From NCBI GenBank assembly GCA_002779995.1, contig PEWX01000086.1, positions 1 to 55,097 of the forward strand: a DNA stretch of 55,097 nucleotides. The letters are read 5' to 3'. The notes under the pieces are model-generated. The model made no database searches. It was not told the origin of the DNA and saw only the letters and a list, made by a program, of their open reading frames with translations. Positions 3,036-28,045 of this stretch are shown here, one piece after another. The position numbers were made by a program, and so were the translations under genes. Position 1 is the first letter of the stretch; each line of letters opens with the position of its first letter. This stretch comes from Piscirickettsiaceae bacterium CG07_land_8_20_14_0_80_44_28. Its GTDB lineage: Bacteria > Pseudomonadota > Gammaproteobacteria > Thiomicrospirales > Thiomicrospiraceae.

Positions 3036-3295
3036 TGAGAATTTGGGATATTGATGGTTTATGACTTTGCCAACCCCCTGATTCGGTAAGCGTCATAAAT
3101 GTTTTTTTTTAGTTTGGTATTTTACTCTAATTTATTATTCAAAATACAGACGTTTTCCTTGGTACTGAACGCTTGTTAAGATGAGGCAAACAAAAGGGGT
3201 TCAGTACACAAATCCTGTCAAAACAGCTGCAAAGCAAGAATTTTTTCGCTTAAAATGATTGCTGTTATCGCTTTTTAAAATCATAAGGTTTAAAA

Positions 3296-5476: not shown

Positions 5477-5479
5477 AAT

Positions 5480-6169
5480 CTAGAGCGCCGCTGAATCGAT
5501 ATAAACCCAAGTTTGTTCGCCTTCAACTTGTTGAATAGGTAAGTTGGCTTGCTGCTTGAGCCAATCTTTAACAGCATTTCTTTTGTTTTGACCGGTAATG
5601 AGTTTAAAAACCACCTTTGCTTGACTCAGTTTCTCATAAGATAAACTCACCCTTTCTGAAGGCGGTTTTGGAGAATGAGTTTCAATAACAACGGATTGAT
5701 TTTGTGGGTAGTGATGCCCGGGAAATAAACTGGCCGTATGCCCATCCTCGCCCATCCCTAACAACACCACATCGAATTGATCAATGGATTGAATCAATTG
5801 CGCATAAGATTTTGCCGCCAAATCGCTTCCCAATTCAGTCGGAATAAAATGGATGTTTTGACTGGGAATCTTTCCAAAAAATAACCAGGCCTGGCTTAAA
5901 GCAACACTGTTTCGATCCTTATCATCTACAGGTAAACAACGCTCGTCGCCCATATAAATATGCCAATTTTGCCAATCCGCTGTTTGTTGGGCGAGTAACT
6001 CATAGCATTTTTGTGGGGTTGTTCCGCCAGCGGTAACCAAAGTAAAAGACCCTTTATCTTCAATGGCTTGTTGTGCTAAGTGACACAACTTAGTGACCAG
6101 TGTCTCTGCCACATCTTCTGCAGAATCAAACACCACCCAGTTTTTGGGTAGGCTGTTAATTTCAACCAT
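5480..6169 (-). CDS. pgl: 6-phosphogluconolactonase (DevB/Pgl type)
   Basis: Hydrolyses 6-phosphogluconolactone to 6-phosphogluconate, the second step of the oxidative pentose phosphate pathway. Family motifs: FTLVTAGGTTPQKCYELLA, the glucosamine-6-phosphate-isomerase-like MGDERCLPVDDKDRNS, and LLGMGEDGHTASLFPGH. I chose the ATG at 6169 (229 residues), which follows the zwf stop by 2 bases and has GAGAGA upstream. An upstream start at 6205 would add 12 residues and overlap zwf by 34 bases. Third gene of gnd-zwf-pgl. A CCAGGCCTGG copy is read within it as Gln-Ala-Trp. Confidence 0.93.
   Translation of the reverse strand: MVEINSLPKNWVVFDSAEDVAETLVTKLCHLAQQAIEDKGSFTLVTAGGTTPQKCYELLAQQTADWQNWHIYMGDERCLPVDDKDRNSVALSQAWLFFGKIPSQNIHFIPTELGSDLAAKSYAQLIQSIDQFDVVLLGMGEDGHTASLFPGHHYPQNQSVVIETHSPKPPSERVSLSYEKLSQAKVVFKLITGQNKRNAVKDWLKQQANLPIQQVEGEQTWVYIDSAAL
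5885..5894. repeat. iterated palindrome CCAGGCCTGG
   Basis: Exact copy inside pgl, read in frame as Gln-Ala-Trp (SQAWLFF). Confidence 0.9.
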
Positions 6170-6171
6170 CT

Positions 6172-7653
6172 TTATTGTCTCTCTGGATGAATATAATACC
6201 GCCAATCTTGTTCAGAGGAATCAAACAGTTTGCTCGCGCCTTTTGGTCCCCAAGTGCCAGAAGGATAGGTATCAATATAAGTTGTTTCTGTACTCCAAAC
6301 ATCAATCACCGGATCCACGACCTTCCAGGCGGCCTTCACTTCATCATAGCGTAAAAATAATGAACGGTCTCCCTTAATGACATCCAGCAAGAGTTCTTCA
6401 TAAGCATCATTAGAATCGATATCCGAAGGTTTTAGGGCTGCATCCAAACGGATTTGCTGGGTATTCATCTCCAGGCCTGGTTGTTTTGCTAACATTTCTA
6501 CCTTAATGGATTCATCGGGTTGAATGCCAAAAATAATCCAGTTGGGTTGCATTTTTTCTACTTGAGAGTCTCTGAAAAACTGTTTAGGCGCATGTTTAAA
6601 ACAGATCGACACCATGGTTTTGGTTTTTGGCATATTTTTACCGGTTTGAATATAAAAAGGCACCCCTGCCCAGCGCCAGTTTTCAATATAAAGCTTTAAA
6701 GCCGCATAAGTTTCCGTCACACTATCCGGTGCAACACCAGGTTCATCTAAATAGCCTTTTACCGGCTGATTATTCAGCTCTCCCGCTGTATATTGCGCCC
6801 GATAAGCCTGGGCTTTGGCATTCTTTTTTGAAATTGGACGAATTGATTTTAACAATTTAACCTTTTCATCCCTCAAATCTTCCGCATCCATTGATGCGGG
6901 AGGTTCCATGGCAACCAATGCCAAAAGCTGTAGTAAATGACTTTGAATCATGTCACGCATCGCACCACTAGTATCATAATAACCCGCCCGAGTACCGATG
7001 GGTCTATCCTCTGCATGGGTAATTTGGATGTGGTCAATAAAGTTTCGATTCCAAAGAGGCTCCATTAATAGGTTGGCAAAGCGAAATACCATGATATTTT
7101 GCACCATACCTTTACCCAGATAATGGTCAATACGGTAAATTTGCTTTTCTTCAAGATATTTATTGAGCGATATCTGAAGGTGTTTGGCGCTTTCTGTGTC
7201 ATAACCAAAAGGTTTTTCTAGCACCACTCGCTTCCAACCATTATCTTCTTTTAGCATACCCGCTTCACCCAGATTGCTGATGGCTTTACCATAGCTGTTT
7301 GGGCTTAAAGATAAATAGTAAGCAATATTATTAGGCCAGTCTGAATCTTGAATTTTCTGCTGCAAAAAAGTATAGGCATCAGGATTCTCAACATCCATTT
7401 CAAAGTAATCTAACCGATCACAAAACCGTTCAAAAACCCCTTCCTTTAAGCCTCCCCGCGCAATCGGTAAAACGGCTTCTCTGACCGTCTTTAGCCATTG
7501 CTGGCGATCCCAAGGGCGACGGCCAATTGCCAGAATACGAAGCTTGCCATCTAAACGGCCACTCTCTTCCAAGTGATAAAAGCTAGGCATTAACTTTGAT
7601 AAAGACAAGTTTCCGGTGGCGCCAAAAACAACATAGGTACACGCTAAAGACAT
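6172..7653 (-). CDS. zwf: Glucose-6-phosphate 1-dehydrogenase
   Basis: Oxidises glucose 6-phosphate to 6-phosphogluconolactone with NAD(P)+. The N-terminal nucleotide-binding motif is [20 protein letters not shown] (commonly GASGDLxxRKL). The active-site signature is [13 protein letters not shown], with the substrate-binding lysine and histidine, and EKPFG is present. At 493 residues it is normal length. It lies 18 bases downstream of gnd and 2 bases upstream of pgl, so the three oxidative pentose-phosphate enzymes form one operon. It carries one CCAGGCCTGG copy read as Pro-Gly-Leu. Confidence 0.96.
6471..6480. repeat. iterated palindrome CCAGGCCTGG
   Basis: Exact copy inside zwf, read in frame as Pro-Gly-Leu (KQPGLEM). 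Confidence 0.9.
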
Positions 7654-7671
7654 GATTAAACCTCGTAAGTG

Positions 7672-9111
7672 CTAGAGCTGATTTGACCGCCGGACTTGAA
7701 TCCAGTCAGTATGAAAAAACTTGCCTCTCTGTGCATCCACTCTTTCGTAAGTGTGGGCACCAAAATAATCTCTTTGTGCCTGTAATAAATTAGCCGGTGA
7801 CGAGGCAGTGCGGTAACCATCAAAAAATGACAATGCCGAGCTTAATGCGGGGGTAGCGACTTGAGATTGAATAGCAAACACAACCGCCTTGCGCCAGTTG
7901 CTTTCTGCATCTTTAATGGCATTTTCAAAGAACGGTGCGCTAAGAAGATTGTCGAGTTGAGGAGCCTCATCATAAGCTTGTTTGATTTCACCTAAAAAAG
8001 TACTGCGAATGATACAGCCGCCTCGCCACATTAAAGCAATGCCGCCATAGTTTAGATTCCAACCATAGGTTTTAGCGGCCTCTGACATTAGCATATAGCC
8101 TTGGGTATAGGAAATGATTTTAGAGGCATAGAGTGCATCGTGGATGGCTTGTAATAGCATTTCTATTTCATCTTCTGATAAATGGGGTTTATCAGCGACA
8201 GGATAACGTTCGGCTGCGGCCACTCTTTGCTGTTTTAAAGCGGATAAACAGCGGGCGTAAACCGATTCTGATATCAGAGTTAGGGGTGTCCCCAGTTCCA
8301 AAGAACTTATGCCTGTCCATTTACCCGTGCCTTTCTGCCCAGCTGCATCTAAGATTTTATCAACGAGCGGCAAGCCATCGCTGTCTTTAAAGCGTAAAAT
8401 ATCTGCGGTGATTTCAATTAAGTAAGAATTTAATACGCCTTGATTCCATTTTTTAAAGACCTCATGACATTTATCAGCACTAAGTCCCAAACCCCATCGC
8501 ATTAATTGATAGGTTTCACTAATGAGTTGCATGTCACCGTACTCAATGCCATTATGCACCATCTTGACATAATGTCCTGCACCATCTTGACCCACCCAAT
8601 CACAACAAGGCATGCCATCTGCTTTAGCGGCAATCGCTTGAAAAATAGGCCGAATGGCTGGCCAGGCATCAGGATTTCCGCCCGGCATAATGGATGGACC
8701 GGTTCTGGCACCCTCTTCTCCACCGGAAACACCCGCTCCGATAAATAAAATACCTTTTTCTTTCAAGTCTTGAGTGCGTCTAATCGAGTCAGTATATAAA
8801 GAGTTCCCCCCATCAATAATCATATCCCCTGGCGCTAATAAGGGGACTAACTGATCAATAAAGGAATCTACGACCTCACCTGCCTTAACCATTAACATGA
8901 CTTTACGAGGTTGTTTTAGATTGCTGACAAGCGCTTGAAGCGAATCTGCACCCTCTATCGGTCGGTCTCCTGCTTGATTTTTGAGAAAAGCTTCGGTTTT
9001 ATCATAGGTACGGTTGTAAACACAAACACGAAATCCATGATCTGCCATATTTAAAACCAAATTTTGTCCCATAACGGCAAGGCCAATTAGCCCAATATCT
9101 GCTTGATTCAT
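7672..9111 (-). CDS. gnd: 6-phosphogluconate dehydrogenase, decarboxylating
   Basis: Converts 6-phosphogluconate to ribulose 5-phosphate and CO2 with production of NAD(P)H. Motifs: IGLIGLAVMGQNLVLNMADH (Rossmann), IDGGNSLYTDSIRR, FIGAGVSGGEEGARTGPSIM and KMVHNGIEYGDMQLISE (catalytic Lys-His-Asn). The chosen ATG at 9111 gives 479 residues, starts directly at the family N-terminus, and has GGAG 5 bases upstream; an upstream frame extension to 9141 is unlikely to be translated. First gene of gnd-zwf-pgl. About 130 bases further upstream is the tRNA-cluster terminator. Confidence 0.96.
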   Translation of the reverse strand: MNQADIGLIGLAVMGQNLVLNMADHGFRVCVYNRTYDKTEAFLKNQAGDRPIEGADSLQALVSNLKQPRKVMLMVKAGEVVDSFIDQLVPLLAPGDMIIDGGNSLYTDSIRRTQDLKEKGILFIGAGVSGGEEGARTGPSIMPGGNPDAWPAIRPIFQAIAAKADGMPCCDWVGQDGAGHYVKMVHNGIEYGDMQLISETYQLMRWGLGLSADKCHEVFKKWNQGVLNSYLIEITADILRFKDSDGLPLVDKILDAAGQKGTGKWTGISSLELGTPLTLISESVYARCLSALKQQRVAAAERYPVADKPHLSEDEIEMLLQAIHDALYASKIISYTQGYMLMSEAAKTYGWNLNYGGIALMWRGGCIIRSTFLGEIKQAYDEAPQLDNLLSAPFFENAIKDAESNWRKAVVFAIQSQVATPALSSALSFFDGYRTASSPANLLQAQRDYFGAHTYERVDAQRGKFFHTDWIQVRRSNQL

Positions 9112-14915: not shown

Positions 14916-15056
14916 TCAGTCGGTAATAGCTAATAGACTGGCATATCGATCATAAACCCCCAGGCCTGGGTTTTTTTCTACTGCTTTAATTAAAAAGTCG
15001 CATAAACCCTCAATATAAGGTAAGCTTGCCCCTTTTTTGGCAAGGTTGCCAATCAT
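14916..15056 (-). CDS. candidate 46-residue protein, divergent from rhlE
   Basis: ATG at 15056 to TGA at 14916 encodes 46 residues beginning MIGNLAKKGASLPYIEGLCD and ending YDRYASLLAITD. Composition and codon use resemble the neighbours, and the iterated palindrome inside is read as Pro-Gly-Leu (KNPGLGV), as in confirmed genes. Against it: no clear Shine-Dalgarno, only 32 bases to the divergent rhlE start, and an inverted repeat (ATTTCA/TGAAAT) overlapping the start that could instead be an rhlE operator. The frame stays open 10 codons upstream of the ATG, so it could also be the remnant of a longer gene. I recognise no family. Confidence 0.4.
   Translation of the reverse strand: MIGNLAKKGASLPYIEGLCDFLIKAVEKNPGLGVYDRYASLLAITD
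14960..14969. repeat. iterated palindrome CCAGGCCTGG
   Basis: Exact copy between yceI and rhlE. On the plus strand it is extended to CCCAGGCCTGGG and followed by seven T residues, so it may terminate yceI transcription. On the minus strand it is read as Pro-Gly-Leu in the candidate 46-residue ORF. Confidence 0.9.
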
Positions 15057-15088
15057 TTCAAATGAAATAATATCAAACGAGATTTTTT

Positions 15089-16402
15089 ATGAGTTTTGCA
15101 AACCTCGGACTCTGTGCCGAAATTTTGGACGCCGTCAGCAAACAAGGCTATAAAACCCCTTCCCCGATTCAAGCCCAAGCCATTCCCGCTATTTTAACAG
15201 GTCAGGATGTGATGGCCGCAGCACAAACAGGCACCGGAAAAACAGCTGGTTTTACCCTGCCGATTTTACAGAAAATCCATCAGGGAACGCCAGCCAAAGC
15301 AAACCAAGCTAGAGTGCTAATTTTAACACCTACGCGTGAATTAGCGGCGCAAGTCAGTGCCAGCGTAGCAACCTATGGTAACAACCTTTCTTTAAGCTCA
15401 ACCGTGGTGTTTGGGGGCGTTAAAATCAACCCGCAAATGATGAAATTACGCAAAGGGGTTGATATCTTGGTTGCCACGCCGGGGCGCTTATTAGACTTAT
15501 ACCAACAAAATGCCATTAAATTTGATCAGCTGGAAATTCTCGTTTTAGATGAAGCTGACCGCATGTTGGATATGGGATTTATTCACGATATCAAACGTAT
15601 TATCAAAGCATTGCCTAAAGAACGTCAAAACTTATTGTTTTCAGCGACCTTTTCGGAAGAGATTCGCCAACTGGCAAAAGGATTGGTACAAAACCCCGTT
15701 GAAATTTCTGTTAGTCCGCGTAATACCACCGCTACAACAGTCACCCAGTGGATTGTCCCTGTGGATAAAGGCCGTAAAGCTGCCTTGTTAATCCACCTGA
15801 TCCATCACCATCAATGGTCACAAGTTTTGGTGTTTTCTCGAACCAAACATGGTGCCAATCGTTTAACTAAGCAGTTAGAAACCAAAGGCATTAAAGCCGC
15901 TGCCATTCACGGCAATAAAAGTCAAGGCGCACGAACTCAGGCTTTAGCGCGTTTTAAAGCGGGTGAAATTCAAGTCTTAGTTGCAACCGATATTGCTGCG
16001 CGAGGCATTGATATTGACCAATTACCTCATGTGGTGAATTTTGATCTACCAAATGTACCAGAAGATTATGTGCATCGTATTGGTCGAACAGGGCGAGCAG
16101 GTGCTGAAGGTGAAGCAATTTCATTAGTCAGTGCAGATGAAATTAAACAGTTATCAGACATTGAAAACTTAATTCAGCAACTCTTGACTCGAAAATATAT
16201 TGAAGGTTTTGAACCCGACAGTGCATTAGCTGAAACGCGTTTAAATCATAAACCGAAAAAGCCGGCTCAACCGAAAAAACCCAAAAGAAACCCTCCGCAA
16301 AGATCCTCTTCCGAACCCAAACGCACAACTGAAGCCACCAAAAGGCATCGCCCCAAAGCCCCTAGAGGTCCGCATTCCGGATCTCCTAAAACAGGTGCTT
16401 AG
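15089..16402 (+). CDS. rhlE: DEAD-box ATP-dependent RNA helicase, RhlE type
   Basis: All DEAD-box motifs are present: Q motif ([14 protein letters not shown]), [49 protein letters not shown] and [10 protein letters not shown]. The DMGF sequence after DEAD and the basic Pro/Lys-rich tail (from about residue 385, [17 protein letters not shown]) fit RhlE. A role in ribosome assembly and RNA turnover is inferred from the family. It is monocistronic, ending in the 26-base palindromic terminator shared with the convergent GGDEF-EAL gene. Confidence 0.92.
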
Positions 16403-16420
16403 TCCATAAAGATTGATGCT

Positions 16421-16446
16421 AAAAGCAGCCAGGCCTGGCTGCTTTT
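16421..16446. terminator. bidirectional terminator built on CCAGGCCTGG
   Basis: A 26-base perfect palindrome: four A, GCAGCCAGG and its mirror ending in four T, extended to six T on the plus strand. It lies between the convergent rhlE and GGDEF-EAL genes (stops at 16402 and 16451) and can serve both. Its centre is an exact copy of the iterated palindrome. Confidence 0.88.
16429..16438. repeat. iterated palindrome CCAGGCCTGG
   Basis: Exact copy forming the core of the rhlE terminator stem. Confidence 0.9.
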
Positions 16447-16450
16447 TTGT

Positions 16451-19087
16451 TTATGCTGATGCCTCCATAACCTTTTGGACATCAGGTTTTAACTGTGTCA
16501 AAAATTCTGATTGCGGCGTCGCGAGGAAGAATCCTTGTGCATAATCAATTCCCAGTTCTTTCACCAAAGTCAACGTCTCTTCGTTTTCTATAAACTCGGC
16601 AATGGTTTGGATATTCAATGATTTGGCCATATTAACTGCACTTTCCACAAAGGCTAAATCGATTTTATCCTTCGCCATATTATTAATAAATTCACCTTCA
16701 ATCTTAATATAATCCACCGGGAATCGTTTTAGGTATTGGAAAGAGGAAAATCCTGAGCCAAAATCGTCAATCGCAAACCGGAAGCCTTGCGAGCGTAATT
16801 CAATCACAAACTTTTCTAGTAAACTGACACTGCCAACTGTTTCACGTTCGGTAATTTCAAAAACAATGCGCTGAGGGTTTATGTCATATTTAAGCGTCAG
16901 CGTTTGAATTTTTTTAATAAACTCACTGGCCACAATTGCCTTGGGCGATAGATTGATAAACAGTAATCCATCGTAGCCTGTTTCATGAATATTCGCTAGC
17001 GCCTTATCAATGAGAATCAAATCCATTTGATTCACCAGCCCCATGTGTTCAGCCGTTTCAATAAAACGGCCAGCACTAATCAATTGCCCCTCTTGACGTA
17101 AACGCATTAATAATTCATGGATTTCAATCTTGCCATTCCGAGTATTTACAATTGGCTGATAATTGGGTTCAATCGGTTCACCCGTCTCAAGTGAATGTAA
17201 AATAAAGACACTTTGATCATTAAATTCCTTATAGGCTTGAACCAAGTCTCCTTCTTGCGGATAAGATAAGGCATTTTTGCCACTGTCTTTAACACGATAA
17301 AGCATATTATCAGCGACCATAAACAGGTCTTCTTTATTGTCTGCATGGTCTGGGTAAACACTGATTCCGACCGAGCATGCAATAGAAACCGTATCGGCTT
17401 TTGGCGAAAGCAATTTTAAGCCTTGGGTGGCTTCCAGTAATTTTTCGGCCACTTCAATCGCTGCATCCAAATCTCTTTCAGGCAGAATCACACAAAATTC
17501 ATCACCACCATAACGCGCAAAAATATCGCCTTCATTTAGAACCGTTTTGATAACTTGCGCAAAATTTTGCAAGACTTCATCGCCAAAAGCATGGCCATAT
17601 TGATCATTAATCAGCTTAAAATTATCAAAATCAATCATTAACAAGCCAAAATGATACCCATGAGACTTGGCTCTCACCACTTCATAAGACAACATTTCGG
17701 TAAAGACGCGTTGATTATAAAGATGGGTTAACGGATCTCGCGTTGCATAATACTCTAACTCTTTGGTGAATTTATTAATGGCTTTAATCGAACCGATAAC
17801 ATTGACGAGTGTCGTTAAGACACTTTCAACCACCACCGAGCGTGAAGATTCTTTAGGAGGAAACGTCTCAACGCCCAGACCAACAACCCCACCAATTTTG
17901 GGGGTTTCAAGCAATAAACTTTTACTTTGCGTTTTAATTCGGGTTTGCACTTCTAAAGGATCATTTGTGGTATAGGTGTGATTGACTTTAAAGACCGAGC
18001 CAGTATCAAAAATGGAATTGGCTGACAATAAAACTTTGGCATGGGCTTCCATTTCTTTTTGAATTTTTTGACTCGGAACGCCCAACCAAAAAATCTCAAT
18101 GACATACTGTTCAATATCATCTGTACGAAACACTACAAACATCGTATAGAGCGGCAAAATATAATTAATTTCATTCATTAAGATACAGATATGTTGCTTC
18201 CAATCTTTAATCAACTCAGAAGACAAAACCAGTTTATCGAGTAATTGAATTTCAAAATCCAGAATATCGCGGTCAATGGCAATATGTTTCAATTTATCGC
18301 CGAGTTGTTTGAGGCTTTTATTTAACACTTGGAATTCACGATATTTAAAAACCGCATCTTCATGCGTGAGTTTGGCCAAGTCATCCACTCGATGAATGGA
18401 TGAAATGTGCTCATCAAGCACCATAATACTTTTGATAACACTCTTGGAAAAACGTCTACCCACCCAAGCAGCGAATAATAAAGGAATGGGCATCAATACC
18501 AGCATTAATAAAATAAATTCATTGCGTGCTGTTGCAACCATTTGAGATATGGGTTGCTGAACCCCCATAATGCCAAGAATATCTCCCACTTTTGCTTGAG
18601 TATGACATTGTAAACATACCTGTTTAGCAATAAGCGGTTTTAAAGTCTGAATGCCATTCGGTGTTTCAATCGTCAAGGGTGCCTTGGTTTGTAGAACCTC
18701 ATCGTATAGCGGTTGTACATCAGGGTTAATCTTTGAGTCTAACTCGCCAAATTGGCCGTTGACAATGTCAGAACGATAGATCGAAAAGCGCAAATCATGT
18801 TCAGAATAGGTTTGCTCCATTTCAGCTAAAAATGTCAGCAATTCATCTCGATTCCAGCCTTTACTCATAATTTGATACATATTATTAAAAGACAGCGTGA
18901 TCAACGTCTCTGCACTGCGTTCGGTTTGTTTAGACAAACTTTCGGTAAAAATTTTGGACGCAGCAATCATTGTCATGGAAAATACGGCCAGTGCAGCAAT
19001 TAAGGCACCGAGTAACATGGTTTTACTCAGACTTTTGGAATCTGTATATTGGTTCTTATTGTTCATATGTATTAGGATTGATTCCAT
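16451..19087 (-). CDS. Membrane GGDEF-EAL protein with periplasmic c-type haem site
   Basis: 878 residues: transmembrane helix (about 24-46), periplasmic sensor with one haem-c motif CLQCH (158-162) in a DUF3365-like context (VCLQCHTQAKVGDILGIMGV), second helix (about 190-209), linker with a GAF-like region (about 270-440), GGDEF and EAL. The cyclase motif YGGDEF (526-531) is intact. The inhibitory I-site RxxD is replaced by NEGD, so product inhibition is probably lost. EAL residues look intact: HELLMRL, INLSPKAIV, FEITERE, IDDFGSGFSS, YIKIEGEF and QGFFLA. It could make or hydrolyse cyclic-di-GMP in response to redox state or a gas ligand. The start may instead be the ATG at 19066. Confidence 0.88.
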   Translation of the reverse strand: MESILIHMNNKNQYTDSKSLSKTMLLGALIAALAVFSMTMIAASKIFTESLSKQTERSAETLITLSFNNMYQIMSKGWNRDELLTFLAEMEQTYSEHDLRFSIYRSDIVNGQFGELDSKINPDVQPLYDEVLQTKAPLTIETPNGIQTLKPLIAKQVCLQCHTQAKVGDILGIMGVQQPISQMVATARNEFILLMLVLMPIPLLFAAWVGRRFSKSVIKSIMVLDEHISSIHRVDDLAKLTHEDAVFKYREFQVLNKSLKQLGDKLKHIAIDRDILDFEIQLLDKLVLSSELIKDWKQHICILMNEINYILPLYTMFVVFRTDDIEQYVIEIFWLGVPSQKIQKEMEAHAKVLLSANSIFDTGSVFKVNHTYTTNDPLEVQTRIKTQSKSLLLETPKIGGVVGLGVETFPPKESSRSVVVESVLTTLVNVIGSIKAINKFTKELEYYATRDPLTHLYNQRVFTEMLSYEVVRAKSHGYHFGLLMIDFDNFKLINDQYGHAFGDEVLQNFAQVIKTVLNEGDIFARYGGDEFCVILPERDLDAAIEVAEKLLEATQGLKLLSPKADTVSIACSVGISVYPDHADNKEDLFMVADNMLYRVKDSGKNALSYPQEGDLVQAYKEFNDQSVFILHSLETGEPIEPNYQPIVNTRNGKIEIHELLMRLRQEGQLISAGRFIETAEHMGLVNQMDLILIDKALANIHETGYDGLLFINLSPKAIVASEFIKKIQTLTLKYDINPQRIVFEITERETVGSVSLLEKFVIELRSQGFRFAIDDFGSGFSSFQYLKRFPVDYIKIEGEFINNMAKDKIDLAFVESAVNMAKSLNIQTIAEFIENEETLTLVKELGIDYAQGFFLATPQSEFLTQLKPDVQKVMEASA

Positions 19088-19214
19088 TTAATACTACACA
19101 AAGCGCCAATAGGCTAAGCCAGATTGACAAGGGAAGGCTAATGTGGGCAGTCTAACGAAATATGCGAGGCGAAGATAATCAATAAATTTTATTAAAAAAA
19201 CATAAAAAAACTGA

Positions 19215-20342
19215 TTATCTAAGCCATTGATTGATGCCTTCCTGAAGTGTTTTAGCTAGGTTTTGAGGGGTTTGTGCATAGCAATCCGCTAAAGATAGCT
19301 TTGTCTGTGGGTGAATAGATAGACAGTGTTTAAATGGAAAGAAATCTTTTTTATCGAGGGCTAACTTGCCACAGAGCGCAACGGTTTGGGTTTGGTGCTG
19401 TTGGGCAAGTTGGGCAATTCGGAAAGGGAGTTTGCCAAACAGACTCTGCTGATCAATCATCCCTTCCCCGGTAATCACCAGGTCGATGGCCTGTGATTCA
19501 AACAATTGAGGCAGACATAAATAGTCTGATAACAACTCAAAACCGGATACCAATTTCGCATTTAATATGGCTACAAAACTGGCTGCCATACCGCCTGCTG
19601 CGCCACTTCCAGGGATATGGCGCACCTCTTTATCACTGTACCGATCCAGTTGGTTTGCCAGGTGCGTCATATGCTTTTCCAAAGTTGGTAGCATTTCATT
19701 AGAGGCGCCTTTTTGAGGTGCAAAAATGGCGGTGGCACCCTTTTCTCCTAATAAAGGATTATTGACATCACAGGCCATAACCCAATCAATTTCGGCCAGG
19801 CCTGGTTGATTATCGATAATTTGATTGAGATCAATTAATGCTTCCGAACCTTGCGCAATAGAATCGCCGGATGCATTTAAACATTTAAATTTCAACGCTT
19901 GTAAGGCCCCCATCCCGGCATCATGCGTTGCACTCCCCCCCAAACCTAAAATGATTTTCTTAGCCCCCATGTCAACAGCGGCTTGTAACAGTTGACCCGT
20001 TCCATAGGTTGTGGTTTTAAGTGGATTTCGCTCTTCAATAGAAAGAAGCGGTAACCCAGAGGCCTGAGCCATTTCAACGATGGCTGTTTTCGTTGTCGAT
20101 TGCCATGCAAAGTCTGCGGAAACAGGTCTTGCTAACGGATCTTGAACAATGCGCGTTTGTCGTTCGGCCATGCCCGCATAAATAAACGCATCAACAAACC
20201 CCTCTCCGCCATCCGACATAGGTCGACTAATAACCTGAATATTTGCGTCCAAGTTATGAAGCGTTTGTTCAGCAATATGACAAAATTCAACGGCACTAAG
20301 AGAGCCTTTGAAGGAGTCAGGTGCCAGTAAGATGGTTTTCAT
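19215..20342 (-). CDS. glxK: Glycerate 2-kinase (GlxK/GarK family)
   Basis: Phosphorylates D-glycerate with ATP, to 2-phosphoglycerate in the characterised GarK/GlxK family. Signature segments: ILLAPDSFKGSLSAVEFC, SDGGEGFVDAF, IILGLGGSATHDAGMGALQA, GSGAAGGMAASF and ITGEGMIDQQSLFGKLP. It is the last gene of the gpgP-gpgS-GH13-glxK operon, 25 bases after the phosphorylase. There it would return glycerate released from glucosylglycerate to lower glycolysis. A CCAGGCCTGG copy is read as Pro-Gly-Leu. The symbol follows the family; garK is equally possible. Confidence 0.9.
   Translation of the reverse strand: MKTILLAPDSFKGSLSAVEFCHIAEQTLHNLDANIQVISRPMSDGGEGFVDAFIYAGMAERQTRIVQDPLARPVSADFAWQSTTKTAIVEMAQASGLPLLSIEERNPLKTTTYGTGQLLQAAVDMGAKKIILGLGGSATHDAGMGALQALKFKCLNASGDSIAQGSEALIDLNQIIDNQPGLAEIDWVMACDVNNPLLGEKGATAIFAPQKGASNEMLPTLEKHMTHLANQLDRYSDKEVRHIPGSGAAGGMAASFVAILNAKLVSGFELLSDYLCLPQLFESQAIDLVITGEGMIDQQSLFGKLPFRIAQLAQQHQTQTVALCGKLALDKKDFFPFKHCLSIHPQTKLSLADCYAQTPQNLAKTLQEGINQWLR
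19796..19805. repeat. iterated palindrome CCAGGCCTGG
   Basis: Exact copy inside the glycerate kinase gene, read as Pro-Gly-Leu (NQPGLAE). Confidence 0.9.
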
Positions 20343-20367
20343 CTGTGCTCGAATCCTTTGTTTTCAA

Positions 20368-22143
20368 TCAATCGGTAAAAGGTGCCCAAAGTGCCGAAAC
20401 ATGGTCAACGGTTTCTGGCATCAACCAAATTGATTGATAGGGCTTTAATACATATTGGTCTTCCGCACTAGAGACCACACCATTGTCCAGCAAGTTAACC
20501 CAATAACTAAATCGTTCAAAACCTGCAATGGCACTTAAATTCACTATTTTGATGTCATTGGAAAGGTTGTGAATGGCTAATAATGGAAATTTCAAGTCTG
20601 CACTGTCTCGCCAGAGCGCAAAAAAATCGAACCCTATGTCGATGACCTGTTGTGGCGTATCGGGATGAAACGCTCGGTGTTTTTTACGTCTTTGCAGTAT
20701 ATTCGTTAAACGTTTGAGGACTTCTGCATTTGATGTGCGTCCACTTTCTATCAACGCTTGTAAATAATCATAATCCCATCGTCGTCGATTAATAGAGCGG
20801 GTTCGTCCGGTTTTTTCAACCCCTTCTCGGTCACTCGGTGTTGCGACAAAACTGTGAATATAAAAAGCCGGAATACCTTGTAGGGTCATCATAATGTTTT
20901 GCGAACAAATAAATCGATCGACTTGCCATTGATCTGGCCCATTGGAATGAAAGGTTTCTCGAAATGCACTGAATAGCGCAATATTGATTTCATAAGGTGA
21001 TTCGGTGCCATCGGCATTGGTTTTGGTGGTGACAAACCCGCCGAGTCGATGCATACTGGTGATCAAATCATCCACCTCACGTTGCGGCAAAATACCCTCA
21101 ATCGGACGAACACCAATTCCATCATGCGATGCGGTGAAGTTTAAAAAAGTACACCCTGCCGGTGGCGCTTCTAAGTTGCTAGCCCAATCCGTTAAATAGC
21201 GACCATCACCACGATGCAACGCATGAAGTAATAACGGGGCTAAAGCAAACTGATAAACCATTTGCGCTTCATCTTGTTGTCCAAAATAGGACAGGTTTTC
21301 TATGTGAGGAACATTGGTTTCCGTCAATAAGATACTGTCAGGTCTGACCAGTCCCATAATCTCGCGCAAAATTTTAACAATTGCATGCGTTTCTGGAAGG
21401 TGGATACAAGCAGTACCAAGCTGCTTCCATAAAAAGGCAATCGCATCTAAACGAATAATTCTTGCACCCTTTTGTAGATACAAAATGAGAATATCGACCA
21501 TTTTTAAAAGGACTTGTGGATTACTGAAATTTAAATCAATTTGGTCAGCACTAAAGGTTGCCCACACCCATTTTCGACCTCGGTGTGTATAGACAGGAAC
21601 CAATAATGGCGTGTTACGAGGGCGAGTCACTTGCGAGATATCCTCTGTCCCTTCCATTTCAATAAAAAATGAATTGAACGGTTCGATATTTGCTTTGTAG
21701 TCGGTAAACCACAAGCTTTCCCTGGAAATATGATTGATCACCAAATCAAACATCAAATGATAATCCTGATGAATAGATGCGATATCGTCCCAATCCCCTA
21801 AATCTGGGTTAACTTGGGTATAGTCAATCACGGAAAAGCCATCATCCGAGCTATATGGGCAAAAAGGTAAAATATGGACAGTGGTAATAGCCTCCTTTAG
21901 GTATTCCTTTAAAAACTTATTTAAGGTTTGTAAAGGAACCTCTCCTTCTGATAAAAACGTATCCCCGTAGGCAATCAACACCACATCCTCTTGTGACCAA
22001 CGGCTGACGGTTGAGTCGGCGGCCACATCACGCTGGAGGAAAGGTTGCAACTTTATTAAAATTTGTTCGTAGGCAAATTGGCTTGATTCTTTTGCGTAAC
22101 AGGCTTCCAGCCGTTGCCGAATACGTGCTAGGTTAGCTTTCAT
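20368..22143 (-). CDS. GH13_18 sugar phosphorylase, probably glucosylglycerate phosphorylase
   Basis: 591-residue sucrose-phosphorylase-like (GH13 subfamily 18) enzyme. Catalytic residues are visible: nucleophile D233 in ARIIRLDAIAFLWK, acid/base E275 in ILLTETNVPH, and transition-state stabiliser D341 in FTASHDGIG. Subfamily 18 contains phosphorylases for sucrose, sucrose 6-phosphate, glucosylglycerol and glucosylglycerate. Sequence alone does not settle the substrate here. The operon does point to one: genes making glucosylglycerate lie directly upstream and a glycerate kinase directly downstream. The predicted reaction is glucosylglycerate + phosphate giving glucose 1-phosphate + glycerate. 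GAGG lies 9 bases before the ATG. Confidence 0.82.
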   Translation of the reverse strand: MKANLARIRQRLEACYAKESSQFAYEQILIKLQPFLQRDVAADSTVSRWSQEDVVLIAYGDTFLSEGEVPLQTLNKFLKEYLKEAITTVHILPFCPYSSDDGFSVIDYTQVNPDLGDWDDIASIHQDYHLMFDLVINHISRESLWFTDYKANIEPFNSFFIEMEGTEDISQVTRPRNTPLLVPVYTHRGRKWVWATFSADQIDLNFSNPQVLLKMVDILILYLQKGARIIRLDAIAFLWKQLGTACIHLPETHAIVKILREIMGLVRPDSILLTETNVPHIENLSYFGQQDEAQMVYQFALAPLLLHALHRGDGRYLTDWASNLEAPPAGCTFLNFTASHDGIGVRPIEGILPQREVDDLITSMHRLGGFVTTKTNADGTESPYEINIALFSAFRETFHSNGPDQWQVDRFICSQNIMMTLQGIPAFYIHSFVATPSDREGVEKTGRTRSINRRRWDYDYLQALIESGRTSNAEVLKRLTNILQRRKKHRAFHPDTPQQVIDIGFDFFALWRDSADLKFPLLAIHNLSNDIKIVNLSAIAGFERFSYWVNLLDNGVVSSAEDQYVLKPYQSIWLMPETVDHVSALWAPFTD

Positions 22144-22159
22144 TTTGAGTTTCCTCTAA

Positions 22160-23380
22160 CTATGAGGGAAATTGGTTATCTTGCTCAACCGCATCATAAA
22201 GTTTTTCCAATATATCTGGACAGGCACTCATTACACGATTCCAGTTAGGCATAAACGGGACTTCACTTGGGGATTCAACAAACGCCTTACCGGCTTCCAA
22301 AATATTGGCCGCAAACAACTCAATAACCTGTTCTTCGCTATGTAAATCCAACCCAAGACCATTCATTTCGGCATCAAAGGCATAAGACTCCAACTGATCC
22401 AGTGCGGTACGATAATAGCGGGCACGAATGGTTCTCAAGGTGCTATTAGAAAATGGATGACCTCTTACCGCGAGTTTACGATAGAGCGATTTGGCGATAT
22501 CTTGACTCATTCTCGACAAACCAGATTGTTTATCTTCGAAAGAAACCGCCTGATGCTTATGGTCATAAACATCTGCAATGTCTACTTGGCAAATGCGACG
22601 GTTTGAATAATTTTTCAATACTTCTGACAAAACCCCAATTTCCAACCCCCAATCAGACGGAATACGAAGCTCTTTTAAACAATGGACATCTAATGCAAAC
22701 TCTCCGGCCAAAGGATAACGAAAACTGTCCAGATAACTGAGTAAATCATCTTGACCAACGACCCCCTTCAAAGCACGCAATAATGGTGTGACCAATAGTC
22801 TAGAGGCACGGCCATTTAATTTGCCGTCCGCATAGCGTGGATAATAGCCTTTTGAAAAGGCAAAATTGAAAGTGGGGTGTGCAACCGGGTAAATTAATCG
22901 AGCCAATAAACTACGCTGATAAGTTAAAACATCACAGTCATGTAACGCCACCACTTCGGACTGTTCAGAGGCCAAAACATAGCCAAAACAATTCCAAACA
23001 TTACTCCCTTTACCACGCTCTTTAGGTGCCAACCCCTTCTTTTTCAATTCGGCTAAAAGCGATTGCATTCTTGGACCATCATTCCAAAGAATTCGAGTCT
23101 GCTGTGGCAGGTCTGAAAAATAATCTTTTGCATAAGCAAATTGTTTAGCATTCGCCTGATCTAAGCCAATTACAATTTGATTTAAATAAGGAACCTGTTG
23201 CAATTCGTTAACGATAGTGGCTAAAGCAGGCCTTTCCAGTTCACTAAATAAAGAAGGCAGAATGAGTCCTAAGGGTTTTTTTTGGGAAAACTGACATAAC
23301 TCTTTTTCCAAATCTTCAACAGGTCGATTGGTAATATTATGAAAAGTGGTTACCGTGCCATTTTGAAAAAAATCACTCAT
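22160..23380 (-). CDS. gpgS: Glucosyl-3-phosphoglycerate synthase (GT81)
   Basis: Transfers glucose from a nucleotide sugar to 3-phosphoglycerate. The 406-residue protein has the GpgS pattern: LILPSLFSELERPALATIV, IVIGLDQA, GKGSNVWNCFGYVL, the metal-binding DxD in ALHDCDVL (D148, D150), the acceptor-site region GRASRLLVTPLLRAL, and YPLAGEFALDV followed by SDWGLEIGVLSEV. It is 31 bases after gpgP and 16 before the phosphorylase. The sugar donor (GDP-, ADP- or UDP-glucose) cannot be read from the sequence. The product, dephosphorylated by GpgP, is the compatible solute glucosylglycerate. Confidence 0.92.
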   Translation of the reverse strand: MSDFFQNGTVTTFHNITNRPVEDLEKELCQFSQKKPLGLILPSLFSELERPALATIVNELQQVPYLNQIVIGLDQANAKQFAYAKDYFSDLPQQTRILWNDGPRMQSLLAELKKKGLAPKERGKGSNVWNCFGYVLASEQSEVVALHDCDVLTYQRSLLARLIYPVAHPTFNFAFSKGYYPRYADGKLNGRASRLLVTPLLRALKGVVGQDDLLSYLDSFRYPLAGEFALDVHCLKELRIPSDWGLEIGVLSEVLKNYSNRRICQVDIADVYDHKHQAVSFEDKQSGLSRMSQDIAKSLYRKLAVRGHPFSNSTLRTIRARYYRTALDQLESYAFDAEMNGLGLDLHSEEQVIELFAANILEAGKAFVESPSEVPFMPNWNRVMSACPDILEKLYDAVEQDNQFPS

Positions 23381-23411
23381 AATTGACGCTCCTAAAGTTG
23401 CGTTTTATTGA

Positions 23412-24197
23412 TTAAGGGTGGGTTGGATGCGCCAGGTTGGGAATGGCTAATAATTTATCGATCGCTTCCAACCAACCTTCTGGGGCTGTTTGGGTTATTT
23501 TGAAAAAAGAAGGATAGTTAAAAATGTTTGCGCCATCATTTGGAATGACAACAGGATAATCGGCAAAGTCCAACATATCCCGGTCATTTTCACTGTCACC
23601 TAAGGCGACGACCACTTGAGAGGTTGGAACATCATAAAACTGATTTAAAAGAACCTTCATTGCCGTTGCTTTATCGTGATGTCCCATCACATGGTAGAAG
23701 CGCCCCCCCTGCTTTAAGGTTAAATTCTGCTCAGATAAACGCGCTTTAAACGCATTAAAGTTCGCATCACTGTCTAACCAAACAATCGGCTCAGACGCTT
23801 CTCTTTCCATCGCTTTTAAGGCCTGATTGCTATGAAGTTGTGTATGGTTCATCACCTCAGCTAATGACCAATCACCAAAGCCCTCAAATTGCCATTGAGT
23901 CTCAGCTCTTAAAGCATTTAAAACAGAACGAATATGGGAATAGCAAACCCCTAATTGCACTTTTTTAAAAGGTTCTTGGCTGCTGGAAATACGCATAACC
24001 CCGCCGTTCTCAGCAATAATGGGGGTATTCAGTTCCAACTTGATTTGCCATTCATCTAATTCAGTTAAGGTCTTACTCGAGTTCAATATCACTGGAACAT
24101 TCAGCGACTTTAGGTGTTGTAATACAGGCAGAACCGCTTGATATTCATAAGAATGATGGTTTAATAAAGTTCCATCTAAATCAGTAAAAATAATCAT
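23412..24197 (-). CDS. gpgP: Glucosyl/mannosyl-3-phosphoglycerate phosphatase (HAD family)
   Basis: HAD-IIB phosphatase of the mannosyl-3-phosphoglycerate phosphatase family. Catalytic aspartates D6 and D8 are in FTDLDGTLLNHH; SSKT is motif II, followed by IIAENGG; GDSENDRDML is motif IV. With GpgS next to it, the expected substrate is glucosyl-3-phosphoglycerate rather than the mannosyl compound. First gene of the four-gene operon, with a candidate promoter about 150 bases upstream. Confidence 0.9.
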   Translation of the reverse strand: MIIFTDLDGTLLNHHSYEYQAVLPVLQHLKSLNVPVILNSSKTLTELDEWQIKLELNTPIIAENGGVMRISSSQEPFKKVQLGVCYSHIRSVLNALRAETQWQFEGFGDWSLAEVMNHTQLHSNQALKAMEREASEPIVWLDSDANFNAFKARLSEQNLTLKQGGRFYHVMGHHDKATAMKVLLNQFYDVPTSQVVVALGDSENDRDMLDFADYPVVIPNDGANIFNYPSFFKITQTAPEGWLEAIDKLLAIPNLAHPTHP

Positions 24198-24344
24198 TTG
24201 AATTCATCAACCCCGTCTGAGTAAATCGTGCTTAGTCACAATAAACAATCATGCAAATTGCATCATTAAACATCACCAAACACTACCGAATATTGATAGT
24301 AAAGCGATTATTAAACCAAGATGTTTTTATAATTTATTTTCAAT

Positions 24345-24372
24345 AAGATAGCATAATAATGGCCTGTAACAA
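24345..24372 (-). promoter_or_regulatory. candidate promoter of the glucosylglycerate operon
   Basis: On the minus strand TTGTTA (24372-24367), 16 bases, then TATCTT (24350-24345), in the AT-rich 222-base gap before gpgP. The leader of about 140 bases leaves room for osmotic control, but no specific operator was recognised. Confidence 0.35.
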
Positions 24373-24382
24373 CATTAACTAC

Positions 24383-24418
24383 GCACTCTTTTATAAAAAC
24401 AGTGCATAAAAGAGGTGC
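24383..24418. terminator. hairpin directly after folP
   Basis: CTCTTTTAT (24386-24394) pairs with ATAAAAGAG (24406-24414), extended by GCAC/GTGC across a one-base bulge. It begins within two bases of the folP stop. There is no long T-tract on the minus strand, so it is either a weak terminator or an RNA-stabilising end. Confidence 0.45.
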
Positions 24419-24419
24419 A

Positions 24420-25244
24420 CTATATCAGTGATAGAACGACTTTTAACGCCTCCGAGGTCTCTTTGACATCGTGTACTCTAAGAATCTTTGCGCCTTTCAG
24501 GGTTGCCAAAATGGCTGCCGCAACACTTCCAATCATTCTTTCTTCGACAGCAACACCCCCTAAGATGTCACCAATCATGGATTTGCGAGAGACCCCAACC
24601 AAAAGCGGATAAGGTAGAGCGGCCAAATCTTCTAATCCTTCAAATAATTCAATATTGTGCGCGAGACGTTTGCCAAACCCAAAGCCCGGATCAATCATAA
24701 TGTTTTCTGCCAACACCCCTTTATCAATGCAATATTCGGCTTTTTGCAATAGAAAATTTTTGACATCATCTATCACGGAACCAGAATAGTTGGGCGCTTG
24801 TTGCATATCTTTTGGCTGGCCCTGTTTATGCATCAAACAAACAGCAATCGAATGTTTGGCTAACAATTCCACTGCACCCGGTGCTTGAAGCGCATTAACA
24901 TCGTTAATCATATCAACCCCTAATTGAATAGCTTCGGCCATCACTTCTGTTTTATAAGTGTCAACCGAAATATACGCATCCGTATGGGTTTTTACCCATT
25001 CGACGACCGGTAACACCCGTTCTAACTCTACCGCTAAGGGTACCGGATCTGCCCCAGGCCTGGTTGATTCTCCGCCAATATCGACAATATTTACGCCGGA
25101 TTGATTCATTTTGTCGAGTTGTCGAAGGATAGTCTCTTTATGAATAAAATGACCGCCATCAGAAAAAGAATCTGGCGTGACATTGAGTATTCCCATCAAT
25201 AGTGGCTTATCATTCAGTTGGTGTAAAGCTTCGGTTAAACGCAT
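24420..25244 (-). CDS. folP: Dihydropteroate synthase
   Basis: Joins p-aminobenzoate to dihydropterin pyrophosphate in folate synthesis; target of sulfonamides. Motifs: LMGILNVTPDSFSDGG, IVDIGGESTRPGADPV, INDVNALQAPGA, IMIDPGFGFGKR and LLVGVSRKSMIG. At 274 residues it is normal length. It follows ftsH as in E. coli, but a strong hairpin lies between them. A CCAGGCCTGG copy encodes the Arg-Pro-Gly of the conserved STRPGA substrate loop, the one copy placed in a conserved motif. Confidence 0.96.
   Translation of the reverse strand: MRLTEALHQLNDKPLLMGILNVTPDSFSDGGHFIHKETILRQLDKMNQSGVNIVDIGGESTRPGADPVPLAVELERVLPVVEWVKTHTDAYISVDTYKTEVMAEAIQLGVDMINDVNALQAPGAVELLAKHSIAVCLMHKQGQPKDMQQAPNYSGSVIDDVKNFLLQKAEYCIDKGVLAENIMIDPGFGFGKRLAHNIELFEGLEDLAALPYPLLVGVSRKSMIGDILGGVAVEERMIGSVAAAILATLKGAKILRVHDVKETSEALKVVLSLI
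25054..25063. repeat. iterated palindrome CCAGGCCTGG
   Basis: Exact copy inside folP, in the third frame, read across Thr-Arg-Pro-Gly of the conserved STRPG loop. Confidence 0.9.
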
Positions 25245-25276
25245 GTTAAAAATCTCAATCGTATCGGTTTAAAAAC

Positions 25277-25300
25277 AAAACCCCCAATAAAGGGGGTTTT
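25277..25300. terminator. terminator between ftsH and folP
   Basis: AAAACCCCC pairs with GGGGGTTTT around AATAAA. On the minus strand it is followed by a T-rich tail, and on the plus strand by five T. It lies 33 bases after the ftsH stop and 32 before folP, so folP may need its own promoter or read-through. Confidence 0.8.
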
Positions 25301-25333
25301 TCATTCAAAATATTCAATCCTTCAATTCAATCA

Positions 25334-27286
25334 CTAATGGAGTTTTGGCTCACCATTATCCACCGTATCTGTCGATGTCAAATCGGTTTCAATCTGATCT
25401 GATGCGGCTTCTGGTGCATTAGGGGTATTGTTGTCGTCCTTTTCAGAAGAACGGTCTTGCCAATCCTTCGGCTCACCGGGTTCTTCGCCAGCCATTAATT
25501 TTTTAATTTGGTCTATGTCAATGGTTTCATAATGCAATAGTGTTTCAGCCATGGCATGAAGCACTGACAGGTTTTCTGTTAAGATTTTCTCTGCTCTTTG
25601 GTAGTTTCGGTCGATAAAGACACGAATTTCTTCATCAATCTCTTTGGAGATTTCACCGGAAACATTGGCATTACGAGACGTCCCCATAATAGAGCCATTA
25701 TCTTCTTCTTCGTACATAAGTGGGCCGAGCTTTTCCGACAGCCCCCACTTAGTGACCATATTACGGGCAATTTGTGTCGCGCGCATAATATCGTTACTGG
25801 CACCTGTGGTAACAGCTTCTTTACCAAATATCATCTCTTCTGCAATACGCCCACCATAAAGGCTGGAAAGCTGACTTTCTAATTTACGTTTGCTGTAACT
25901 ATAAGAATCTTCTTCCGGCAAATACATGGTTACCCCTAAGGCACGACCACGCGGCATAATGCTCACTTTATAAACCGGGTCATGTTCAGGAACGACATAC
26001 CCAACAATGGCATGCCCGGCTTCATGATAAGCGGTTAATTTACGCTCTTTTTCACTCATGACCATGCTCTTACGTTCAACCCCCATCAGGATTTTATCTT
26101 TGGCCTTTTCAAAGTGTTTTTGCGTTACCACACGATCATTTTCACGAGCAGCAAATAACGCCGCTTCGTTAACCAAATTGGCTAAATCCGCACCGGAAAA
26201 CCCGGGTGTACCACGCGCAATGACCGCAGGTTGCACATCTTCGTCCATAGGGACTTTGCGCATATGCACTTTAAGAATTTGTTCTCGTCCTCGCACATCA
26301 GGTAACCCCACCGTGACCTGCCGATCAAAACGGCCTGGACGCAATAAAGCCGGATCCAATACATCCGCACGGTTGGTTGCTGCGATGACAATCACACCTT
26401 CATTCCCTTCAAAACCATCCATTTCCACCAGCATTTGGTTTAGGGTCTGTTCACGCTCATCATTGCCCCCACCCATTCCTGAGCCACGGCTTCGACCCAC
26501 AGCGTCGATTTCATCAATAAAGATAATACAAGGGGAATGCGCCTTTGCCTGTTCAAACATATCTCTTACACGGGAAGCCCCAACCCCAACAAACATTTCG
26601 ACAAAATCAGATCCGGAAATACTAAAGAAAGGCACCTTAGCTTCCCCTGCAATGGCTTTGGCTAAAAGGGTTTTACCCGTTCCCGGAGGACCAACCATTA
26701 ACACGCCCCGAGGGATATTGCCGCCTAGGTTTTGATATTTTTCGGGTGCCCGTAAAAAGTCAACGATTTCGCCAACCTCTTCCTTAGCTTCGTCCGCACC
26801 CGCAACATCGTCTAACGTCACTTTAACTTGATCGTCACTGAGCATTCTGGCCTTGCTTTTACCAAATGACATGGGGCCGCCTTTTCCGCCCATGCCGCCG
26901 CTCATTGAACGCATAAAGAAAATCCAAATGGCTATCAACAGTAACATAGGGAACCATGAAATAAAGATCTGCATTAACAAACTTTGTTTTTCTGGTGGAT
27001 TAGCAACAACCTTGACATTGTTATTTAATAAGTCGCCCATTAAACCCGCATCGCCCGGATTATAGGTAGTGAATGCTTTACCATCATTATAAGCACCCCG
27101 AATGGTGCCGCCTTCAATCGCGACTTCACTGACGACGCCACTACGAACTTGGTTAATAAATTCAGAATAGGCAACTTGTGAAGTGCCGCCCATTAGCTTT
27201 TGTCCACTGAAATGATTAAAGATGGACAGCATAACTGTGGCAACCACGATCCAAATTAAAATGTTTTTTAACATATCATTTTTCAT
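25334..27286 (-). CDS. ftsH: ATP-dependent zinc metalloprotease FtsH
   Basis: Membrane AAA+ protease degrading unassembled membrane proteins and regulators. Two transmembrane helices (about 5-24 and 104-124) flank the periplasmic domain. The AAA+ module has Walker A GPPGTGKT (199-206), Walker B IIFIDEID and the second region of homology [19 protein letters not shown]. The zinc protease site is HEAGH (421-425). The C-terminal tail is acidic, Asp/Thr-rich and low in complexity. At 650 residues it matches E. coli (644). It follows rlmE by about 140 bases, the classical order. Confidence 0.97.
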
Positions 27287-27427
27287 AATCCACCTTTGGA
27301 ATCTGTTGTATCGAGCCTTTTAAAGGCTTTTTTTATTTAAATTAAGTTCGTTACTTTAACACAAAATCGACGATTAATAACCCTTTGATCCTTGAGGAGT
27401 TATGACTTTAGGCGGGGTTGGTTAAAG

Positions 27428-28045
27428 CTATTTTTTCCCTTGGGCAAGAAGGTAAACTTCCTTACTGCGAGATCGTGAGGCTTTTGGCTTACGCACTAAC
27501 ACTTTAGTATAGTCTTGTCGAAGCGTTTTCAAGAGTTGATCATAGCCTGTACCTTGAAATACTTTCATCAACAAAGTCCCTTTGGGCTTTAAAACTTGTT
27601 GTGCTAAATCCATCGTTAACTCAACCAAGTACATGGATCTTGGCGTATCAATGCCTTTGTTGCCGGTCATATTGGGCGCCATATCTGACATAACCAAATC
27701 AACTTCTCTATCAGCCAATGCCTCAAGCAGGCTATTATAAACTGACTCCTCTTGAAAGTCGCCTTGTACAAAGGTTACCCCGGCATAGGGTTCGACCGGA
27801 AGAATGTCTAATGCAAAAACCTGCCCATTTTCACCAATTTTTTGTGCCGTCCATTGTGACCATCCCCCTGGTGCGGCGCCTAAATCGATAACCGTCATCC
27901 CTGAATGAAACAACCTATCTTTTTCATCAATCTCTTGAAGCTTATAGATCGCTCGGGATCGCCAACCTTCTTGCTTGGCTTTATGAACGTAATAATCATC
28001 AAAATGTTCTTTTAACCAATTGTTACTGGATTTGCTTTTTGCCAT
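27428..28045 (-). CDS. rlmE: 23S rRNA (uridine-2'-O)-methyltransferase RlmE
   Basis: Methylates U2552 of 23S rRNA late in 50S assembly. The SAM site is VIDLGAAPGGWSQW, and catalytic K-D-K-E residues are visible in WRSRAIYKLQEID, MSDMAPN, LLMKVFQG and RSRSKEVYLLA. At 205 residues it matches E. coli (209). It heads rlmE-ftsH on the minus strand and diverges from yhbY, another ribosome-assembly factor, across 84 bases; this arrangement is conserved in gammaproteobacteria. Confidence 0.96.
   Translation of the reverse strand: MAKSKSSNNWLKEHFDDYYVHKAKQEGWRSRAIYKLQEIDEKDRLFHSGMTVIDLGAAPGGWSQWTAQKIGENGQVFALDILPVEPYAGVTFVQGDFQEESVYNSLLEALADREVDLVMSDMAPNMTGNKGIDTPRSMYLVELTMDLAQQVLKPKGTLLMKVFQGTGYDQLLKTLRQDYTKVLVRKPKASRSRSKEVYLLAQGKK

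Follow-up and report, generated by a model that had tools for sequence, protein, structure and literature searches.

A probable operon for the synthesis and recycling of glucosylglycerate in a Piscirickettsiaceae bacterium and its relatives

Background

Genes for making and for recycling glucosylglycerate have been described together in several microbes. The glucosylglycerate operon of Prochlorococcus combines synthesis with recycling to glucose 1-phosphate and 3-phosphoglycerate (PMC11631117), and clusters of gpgS and gpgP are mentioned for marine Synechococcus (PMC2874817, PMC7522525). Glucosylglycerate phosphorylases are often accompanied by gpgS, gpgP or a glycerate kinase gene, and their sequence marks are a (T/S)ETN motif and a glutamate in loop A; most other clades, including characterised ones of other specificities, have glutamine at the loop-A position (PMC7178133). 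Linkage to glucosylglycerate-metabolism genes has pointed to enzyme specificity (PMC7178133, PMC11009771), and the exact metabolic function of the phosphorylase has not been confirmed experimentally (PMC7178133). Here, we describe four adjacent genes in a contig of 55,097 nucleotides (PEWX01000086.1, hereafter the window) from Piscirickettsiaceae bacterium CG07_land_8_20_14_0_80_44_28, which is related to carbon-fixing sulfur bacteria and whose 2.28 Mb genome is assembled in 122 contigs. On their best reading, these genes very probably form a single operon for the make-and-recycle turnover of 2-O-glucosylglycerate.

The locus is like the operon of Prochlorococcus, a carbon-fixing bacterium, in that synthesis and recycling genes stand together; the genome of the window encodes a RubisCO large subunit. 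It differs in that the Prochlorococcus operon also holds a putative transporter gene (PMC11631117), and none was seen beside the window cluster.

Results

The four open reading frames are all on the minus strand and begin with ATG. In the direction of transcription, they encode a gpgP-like glucosyl-3-phosphoglycerate phosphatase (23412-24197, 261 amino acids), a gpgS-like glucosyl-3-phosphoglycerate synthase (22160-23380, 406 amino acids), a phosphorylase of glycoside hydrolase subfamily GH13_18 (20368-22143, 591 amino acids) and a glycerate kinase (19215-20342, 375 amino acids). In coordinate order, the gaps between them are 25, 16 and 31 bases, which confirms the tight spacing reported in a first-pass annotation of the sequence; the enzyme assignments made there are upheld by the profile matches, the predicted fold of the synthase and the diagnostic residues of the phosphorylase.

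The phosphorylase has TETN at residues 274-277, at β-strand 5, and Glu385 in loop A, aligned with the corresponding glutamate of Escherichia coli YcjM, a protein to which it is 41% identical and which RefSeq names glucosylglycerate phosphorylase; both marks are invariant among 19 aligned sequences. In the alignment to the solved sucrose phosphorylase 7qqj, the position of Glu385 is occupied by glutamine. By homology, Asp233 would be the nucleophile, Glu275, within TETN, the acid/base and Asp341 the third catalytic residue. The best PDB sequence matches are GH13_18 phosphorylases. The protein carries both published marks of a glucosylglycerate phosphorylase (GGaP, EC 2.4.1.352). It shares the GH13_18 subfamily, the (T/S)ETN motif and the loop-A glutamate with the phosphorylases of Meiothermus silvanus and Spirochaeta thermophila and with YcjM (PMC7178133). 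Unlike the window gene, that of E. coli K-12 has transporter and kojibiose-phosphorylase genes as neighbours, and the 20 kb shown include no gpgS.

The phosphatase scores 219.4 bits with TIGR01486, above the cut-off of 164.75, which places it in the HAD-IIB mannosyl-3-phosphoglycerate phosphatase (MPGP) family. It contains DLDGTL from residue 6, NSSK from residue 39 and GDSENDRDML from residue 200, which we take to be HAD motifs. The kinase passes the cut-offs of both TIGR00045 (381 bits against 168.45) and PF02595 (400.8 bits against 23.3), and stays under the respective cut-offs of the glycerate 2-kinase and 3-kinase equivalog models. For the synthase, searches gave no Pfam match and no PDB sequence match at an E-value of 0.001. 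A structure model was built from 17 sequences, among which HDCD (residues 147-150) is invariant; the mean predicted local distance difference test score (pLDDT) is 81.2. The highest-ranked PDB fold matches of the model in Foldseek are mycobacterial glucosyl-3-phosphoglycerate synthases, which we take to belong to family GT81, with 7pho first (E-value 1.5e-10, TM-score 0.51 by query and 0.66 by target). The solved structures of Mycobacterium GpgS are thus the nearest predicted fold, at 16-20% identity in the Foldseek alignments and with the window protein about 100 residues longer than the matched chains.

The conservation of the locus was explored in 55 genomes, the window's own included, 34 of them from its family, Thiomicrospiraceae. 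Intact gpgS is present in 22 of the 34, and the same 22 hold a full phosphorylase gene. In all 22, gpgP, gpgS and the phosphorylase gene are consecutive, on one strand and in the same order, and this conservation of order and strand indicates that the cluster is more than chance. The kinase gene follows a looser pattern: it is directly downstream in 8 genomes, downstream after a three-gene cassette in 3 and a convergent neighbour in 5, and is therefore linked to the locus in 16 of the 22. It nevertheless occurs in every one of the 22, compared with an intact copy in 2 of the 12 family genomes that lack intact gpgS (relatedness uncorrected). One of the latter, G032, has a broken kinase gene and retains, within about 1.5 kb (L093, G032:C1:1024000-1040000, about 6985-8449), fragments of gpgS (27 residues) and of the phosphorylase (68 residues) together with the truncated kinase, which looks like the decay of one whole module.

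Hydrogenovibrio, Thiomicrorhabdus and related genera usually have the cluster. Among named organisms, the closest relative in one contig scan is Hydrogenovibrio sp. SC-1, with 83% amino-acid identity in the phosphorylase; this strain is reported to grow autotrophically through the oxidation of thiosulfate and iron (PMC5794960). The view of the first-pass annotation that an all-in-one operon is notable in such organisms holds only in a local sense, since the arrangement is usual in Hydrogenovibrio and Thiomicrorhabdus, an operon for both synthesis and recycling has been published for Prochlorococcus and gene linkage is a known clue to specificity. The window cluster is a further example of an arrangement known from other microbes. 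As for the lineage itself, searches of the open-licence PMC literature found no mention of glucosylglycerate for Hydrogenovibrio, nothing on it among the matches listed for Thiomicrospira and Thiomicrorhabdus and, judged from listings, nothing on it for this lineage in work on sulfur-oxidizing bacteria.

Discussion

In the proposed turnover, GpgS would join glucose from a nucleotide sugar to 3-phosphoglycerate, and GpgP would strip the phosphate so that glucosylglycerate accumulates. Once the solute is no longer needed, the GH13_18 phosphorylase would cleave it phosphorolytically, releasing glucose 1-phosphate and glycerate; the kinase would then convert glycerate to phosphoglycerate. In a RubisCO-bearing host, 3-phosphoglycerate, the presumed acceptor of GpgS, would also be the first product of carbon fixation. 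Each complete cycle would consume nucleoside triphosphate, and enzyme-level control would therefore be needed if both halves share a transcript. We infer co-transcription, the in vivo substrates and a use of the solute that responds to salt or nitrogen, as well as the single transcript and the dynamic carbon store that the first-pass annotation had proposed.

The points that weigh against this operon concern phosphorylase specificity, the sugar that the synthase takes from its donor and the linkage of the genes. As to the first, the best NCBIfam model of the phosphorylase is a sucrose phosphorylase (TIGR03852 sucrose_gtfA, 205.4 bits, under the cut-off of 334.4), and amylosucrases head the fold matches of its structure model (mean pLDDT 88.6), with GH13_18 phosphorylases after them. 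Of 113 PDB sequence matches, 60 were listed, and the GH13_18 entries among these are named as sucrose, sucrose-6-phosphate or glucosylglycerol phosphorylases (one by entry title only), and a sucrose-active glucosylglycerate phosphorylase is known in the subfamily (PMC11009771). The loop-A glutamate alone is insufficient as a mark, because an uncharacterised myxobacterial clade shares it while carrying AETD instead of TETN (PMC7178133). A phosphorylase acting on sucrose, glucosylglycerol or sucrose 6-phosphate that stands beside gpgS and gpgP by chance is nonetheless very unlikely, as the protein carries TETN together with the loop-A glutamate, a position at which characterised enzymes of other specificities have glutamine, the resemblance to YcjM points the same way and sucrose genes, an amylosucrase among them, form a separate cluster in this genome.

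As to the donor sugar, the best profile of the synthase, NF040724 (GpgS_Meth), gives 344.2 bits, under its cut-off of 700, and a second GpgS model, NF010496, gives 64.3 bits, under its cut-off of 262. Mannosyl-3-phosphoglycerate synthases of Rubrobacter, Thermus and Pyrococcus are also among the fold matches, and the phosphatase family is named after mannosyl-3-phosphoglycerate, so that the two enzymes might act on that compound and the pathway make mannosylglycerate. However, the two NCBIfam models that the synthase matches are both for GpgS, its first-ranked fold matches are GpgS and the next gene encodes a homologue of glucosylglycerate phosphorylase in 22 of 22 family genomes; a mannosylglycerate pathway therefore seems as improbable as a phosphorylase of another specificity.

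As to linkage, the kinase gene is unlinked in 6 of the 22 family genomes with gpgS, and the arrangement is looser outside the family than within it. The phosphorylase gene is on the strand opposite gpgS and gpgP in L016, L020-L023, L063 and L096 and on a different contig from gpgS in G042; no gpgS match was found near the phosphorylase gene in two planctomycete loci (L017, L018), and no kinase match in L016-L018 and L020-L023. Least likely of all is that the phosphorylase and kinase serve mainly imported glucosylglycerate or glycerate, with the synthesis genes as an independent unit: the transporter genes beside the E. coli K-12 phosphorylase gene, without gpgS in the 20 kb shown, and the possible uptake of the solute by Prochlorococcus (PMC11631117) would suit such a role, but no transporter gene was seen among the window's open reading frames of at least 100 amino acids at 16000-28000 (by eye, six being profile-scanned) and gpgS adjoins the phosphorylase gene in 22 of 22 family genomes.

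The regulatory sequences around the proposed turnover operon were examined as well. The same-strand neighbour upstream is a dihydropteroate synthase gene, 222 bases from gpgP, and this gap (24198-24419, minus strand) is where the operon promoter would be expected. A scan of 19050-24500 for promoter-like sites gave 8 against a shuffle mean of 12.3, which counts, if anything, against the operon; it had no site inside the 222-base gap and one at its edge (24446-24419). The gap is partly similar to its counterpart in Hydrogenovibrio sp. SC-1 (L005). Compared by eye across five loci, the region 5' of gpgP in the window is like that of L005 only, and those of L050, L052 and L053 are like one another. 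Purine-rich stretches resembling ribosome-binding sites precede gpgS and the phosphorylase gene (by eye). At the other end, an A+T-rich hairpin running from the kinase stop codon onwards (19176-19217, minus strand) is a possible transcript end. The 128-base stretch that contains it folds no better than its shuffles (z -1.46; 21 of 200 at least as stable), and neither the promoter-like sites nor the terminator-like sites of 19050-24500 (8 of the latter, shuffle mean 5.2, standard deviation 2.2) were used as evidence. No Rfam family reaches its gathering score in 15000-28000.

Directly downstream of the kinase gene, 127 bases away and on the same strand, lies a gene (16451-19087) for a GGDEF-EAL protein with a CxxCH motif (by eye). 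Near full-length relatives of this protein come after the kinase in four further loci (L005, L010, L011, L052), and a link of the operon to cyclic diguanylate (c-di-GMP) through this neighbour is possible.

Outside the window, six relatives have an amidoligase-type cassette in or beside the locus, consisting of genes for a circularly permuted ATP-grasp protein, an Alpha-E protein and a putative zinc peptidase, domains that are taken to constitute a system for peptide synthesis or modification (PMC3597751). Pfam scans were made on the L006 and L050 copies, and the remaining copies were located by tblastn searches that used the L006 proteins as queries. The cassette comes directly after the phosphorylase gene in L006 (7784-11248) and L008 (7777-11283), stands between the phosphorylase and kinase genes in L050 (10162-13692), L053 (10486-13920) and L055 (2020-5611), and is divergent from gpgP in G033 (L062/L098; L098:5417-8853). 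Outside the family, a pair of ATP-grasp and Alpha-E genes is divergent from gpgP in G177; in G280, such a pair is 3.8 kb away from gpgS and separated from it by two genes on the opposite strand. In the window's genome, the cassette is unlinked, on another contig (L092, G000:C104). Fifteen family genomes combine gpgS with a full Alpha-E gene, and in four of these (G002, G009, G013, G033) the two are linked.

Wider samples place this association in context. At the level of the class, where weak gpgS matches (G094, G099, G227, G330) were dropped beforehand, Alpha-E is present in 29 of the 46 genomes that have gpgS, compared with 106 of all 369 (Fisher p 2.6e-7, relatedness uncorrected). Outside the family, 26 genomes carry both genes, and in 2 of them the genes are within 10 kb of each other (0.23 expected, p 0.022); the assemblies of this sample are often fragmented, which hides co-location. 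A phylum sample, which shares some genomes with the class sample, gave no significant enrichment (Alpha-E in 31 of the 50 genomes that have gpgS, compared with 212 of 398, p 0.23), and no Alpha-E gene was seen by eye within 10 kb of gpgS among 24 listed of the 31 genomes. These figures support only a local link between gpgS and the Alpha-E cassette. It is unlikely that an amidoligase pathway of this lineage also uses glucosylglycerate; in that case, the carboxylate of the solute could undergo amidation or be linked to a peptide, and the product would be a conjugate not yet described.

Genes for other solutes occur elsewhere in the window's genome. Genes for sucrose-phosphate synthase, phosphatase-like and fructokinase-like proteins and an amylosucrase lie side by side in L103 (G000:C108:5000-13030, 948-6818). 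The synthase is above the cut-off of TIGR02472, the sucrose-phosphatase-like and fructokinase-like proteins are each under that of their own model, and the amylosucrase matches a solved amylosucrase with 523.5 bits. Also present, all above their cut-offs, are ectB, ectC and a glycogen synthase gene; in L104 (G000:C15:14000-32000), the glycogen synthase and other glycogen-type genes (by eye) lie about 5.5 kb from ectB-ectC. Clusters for synthesis and breakdown of sucrose occur in methanotrophs. The sucrose cluster of this genome resembles the glucosylglycerate locus in that synthesis and breakdown of a glucoside solute are encoded next to each other, though the solute and the enzymes differ. 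Counting the sucrose cluster and the ectoine genes, the organism would have three organic solutes, glucosylglycerate among them, and for two of these, sucrose and glucosylglycerate, the genes for making and breaking down the solute would stand together.

If these genes act as proposed, the combined arrangement of synthesis and recycling extends to the Hydrogenovibrio/Thiomicrorhabdus group, where the acceptor would be the first product of carbon fixation. The group offers natural cases of presence, absence and decay of the module, and the whole cycle in one probable operon, in a genome with sucrose and ectoine genes, would make it a fair place for testing the function of the phosphorylase.

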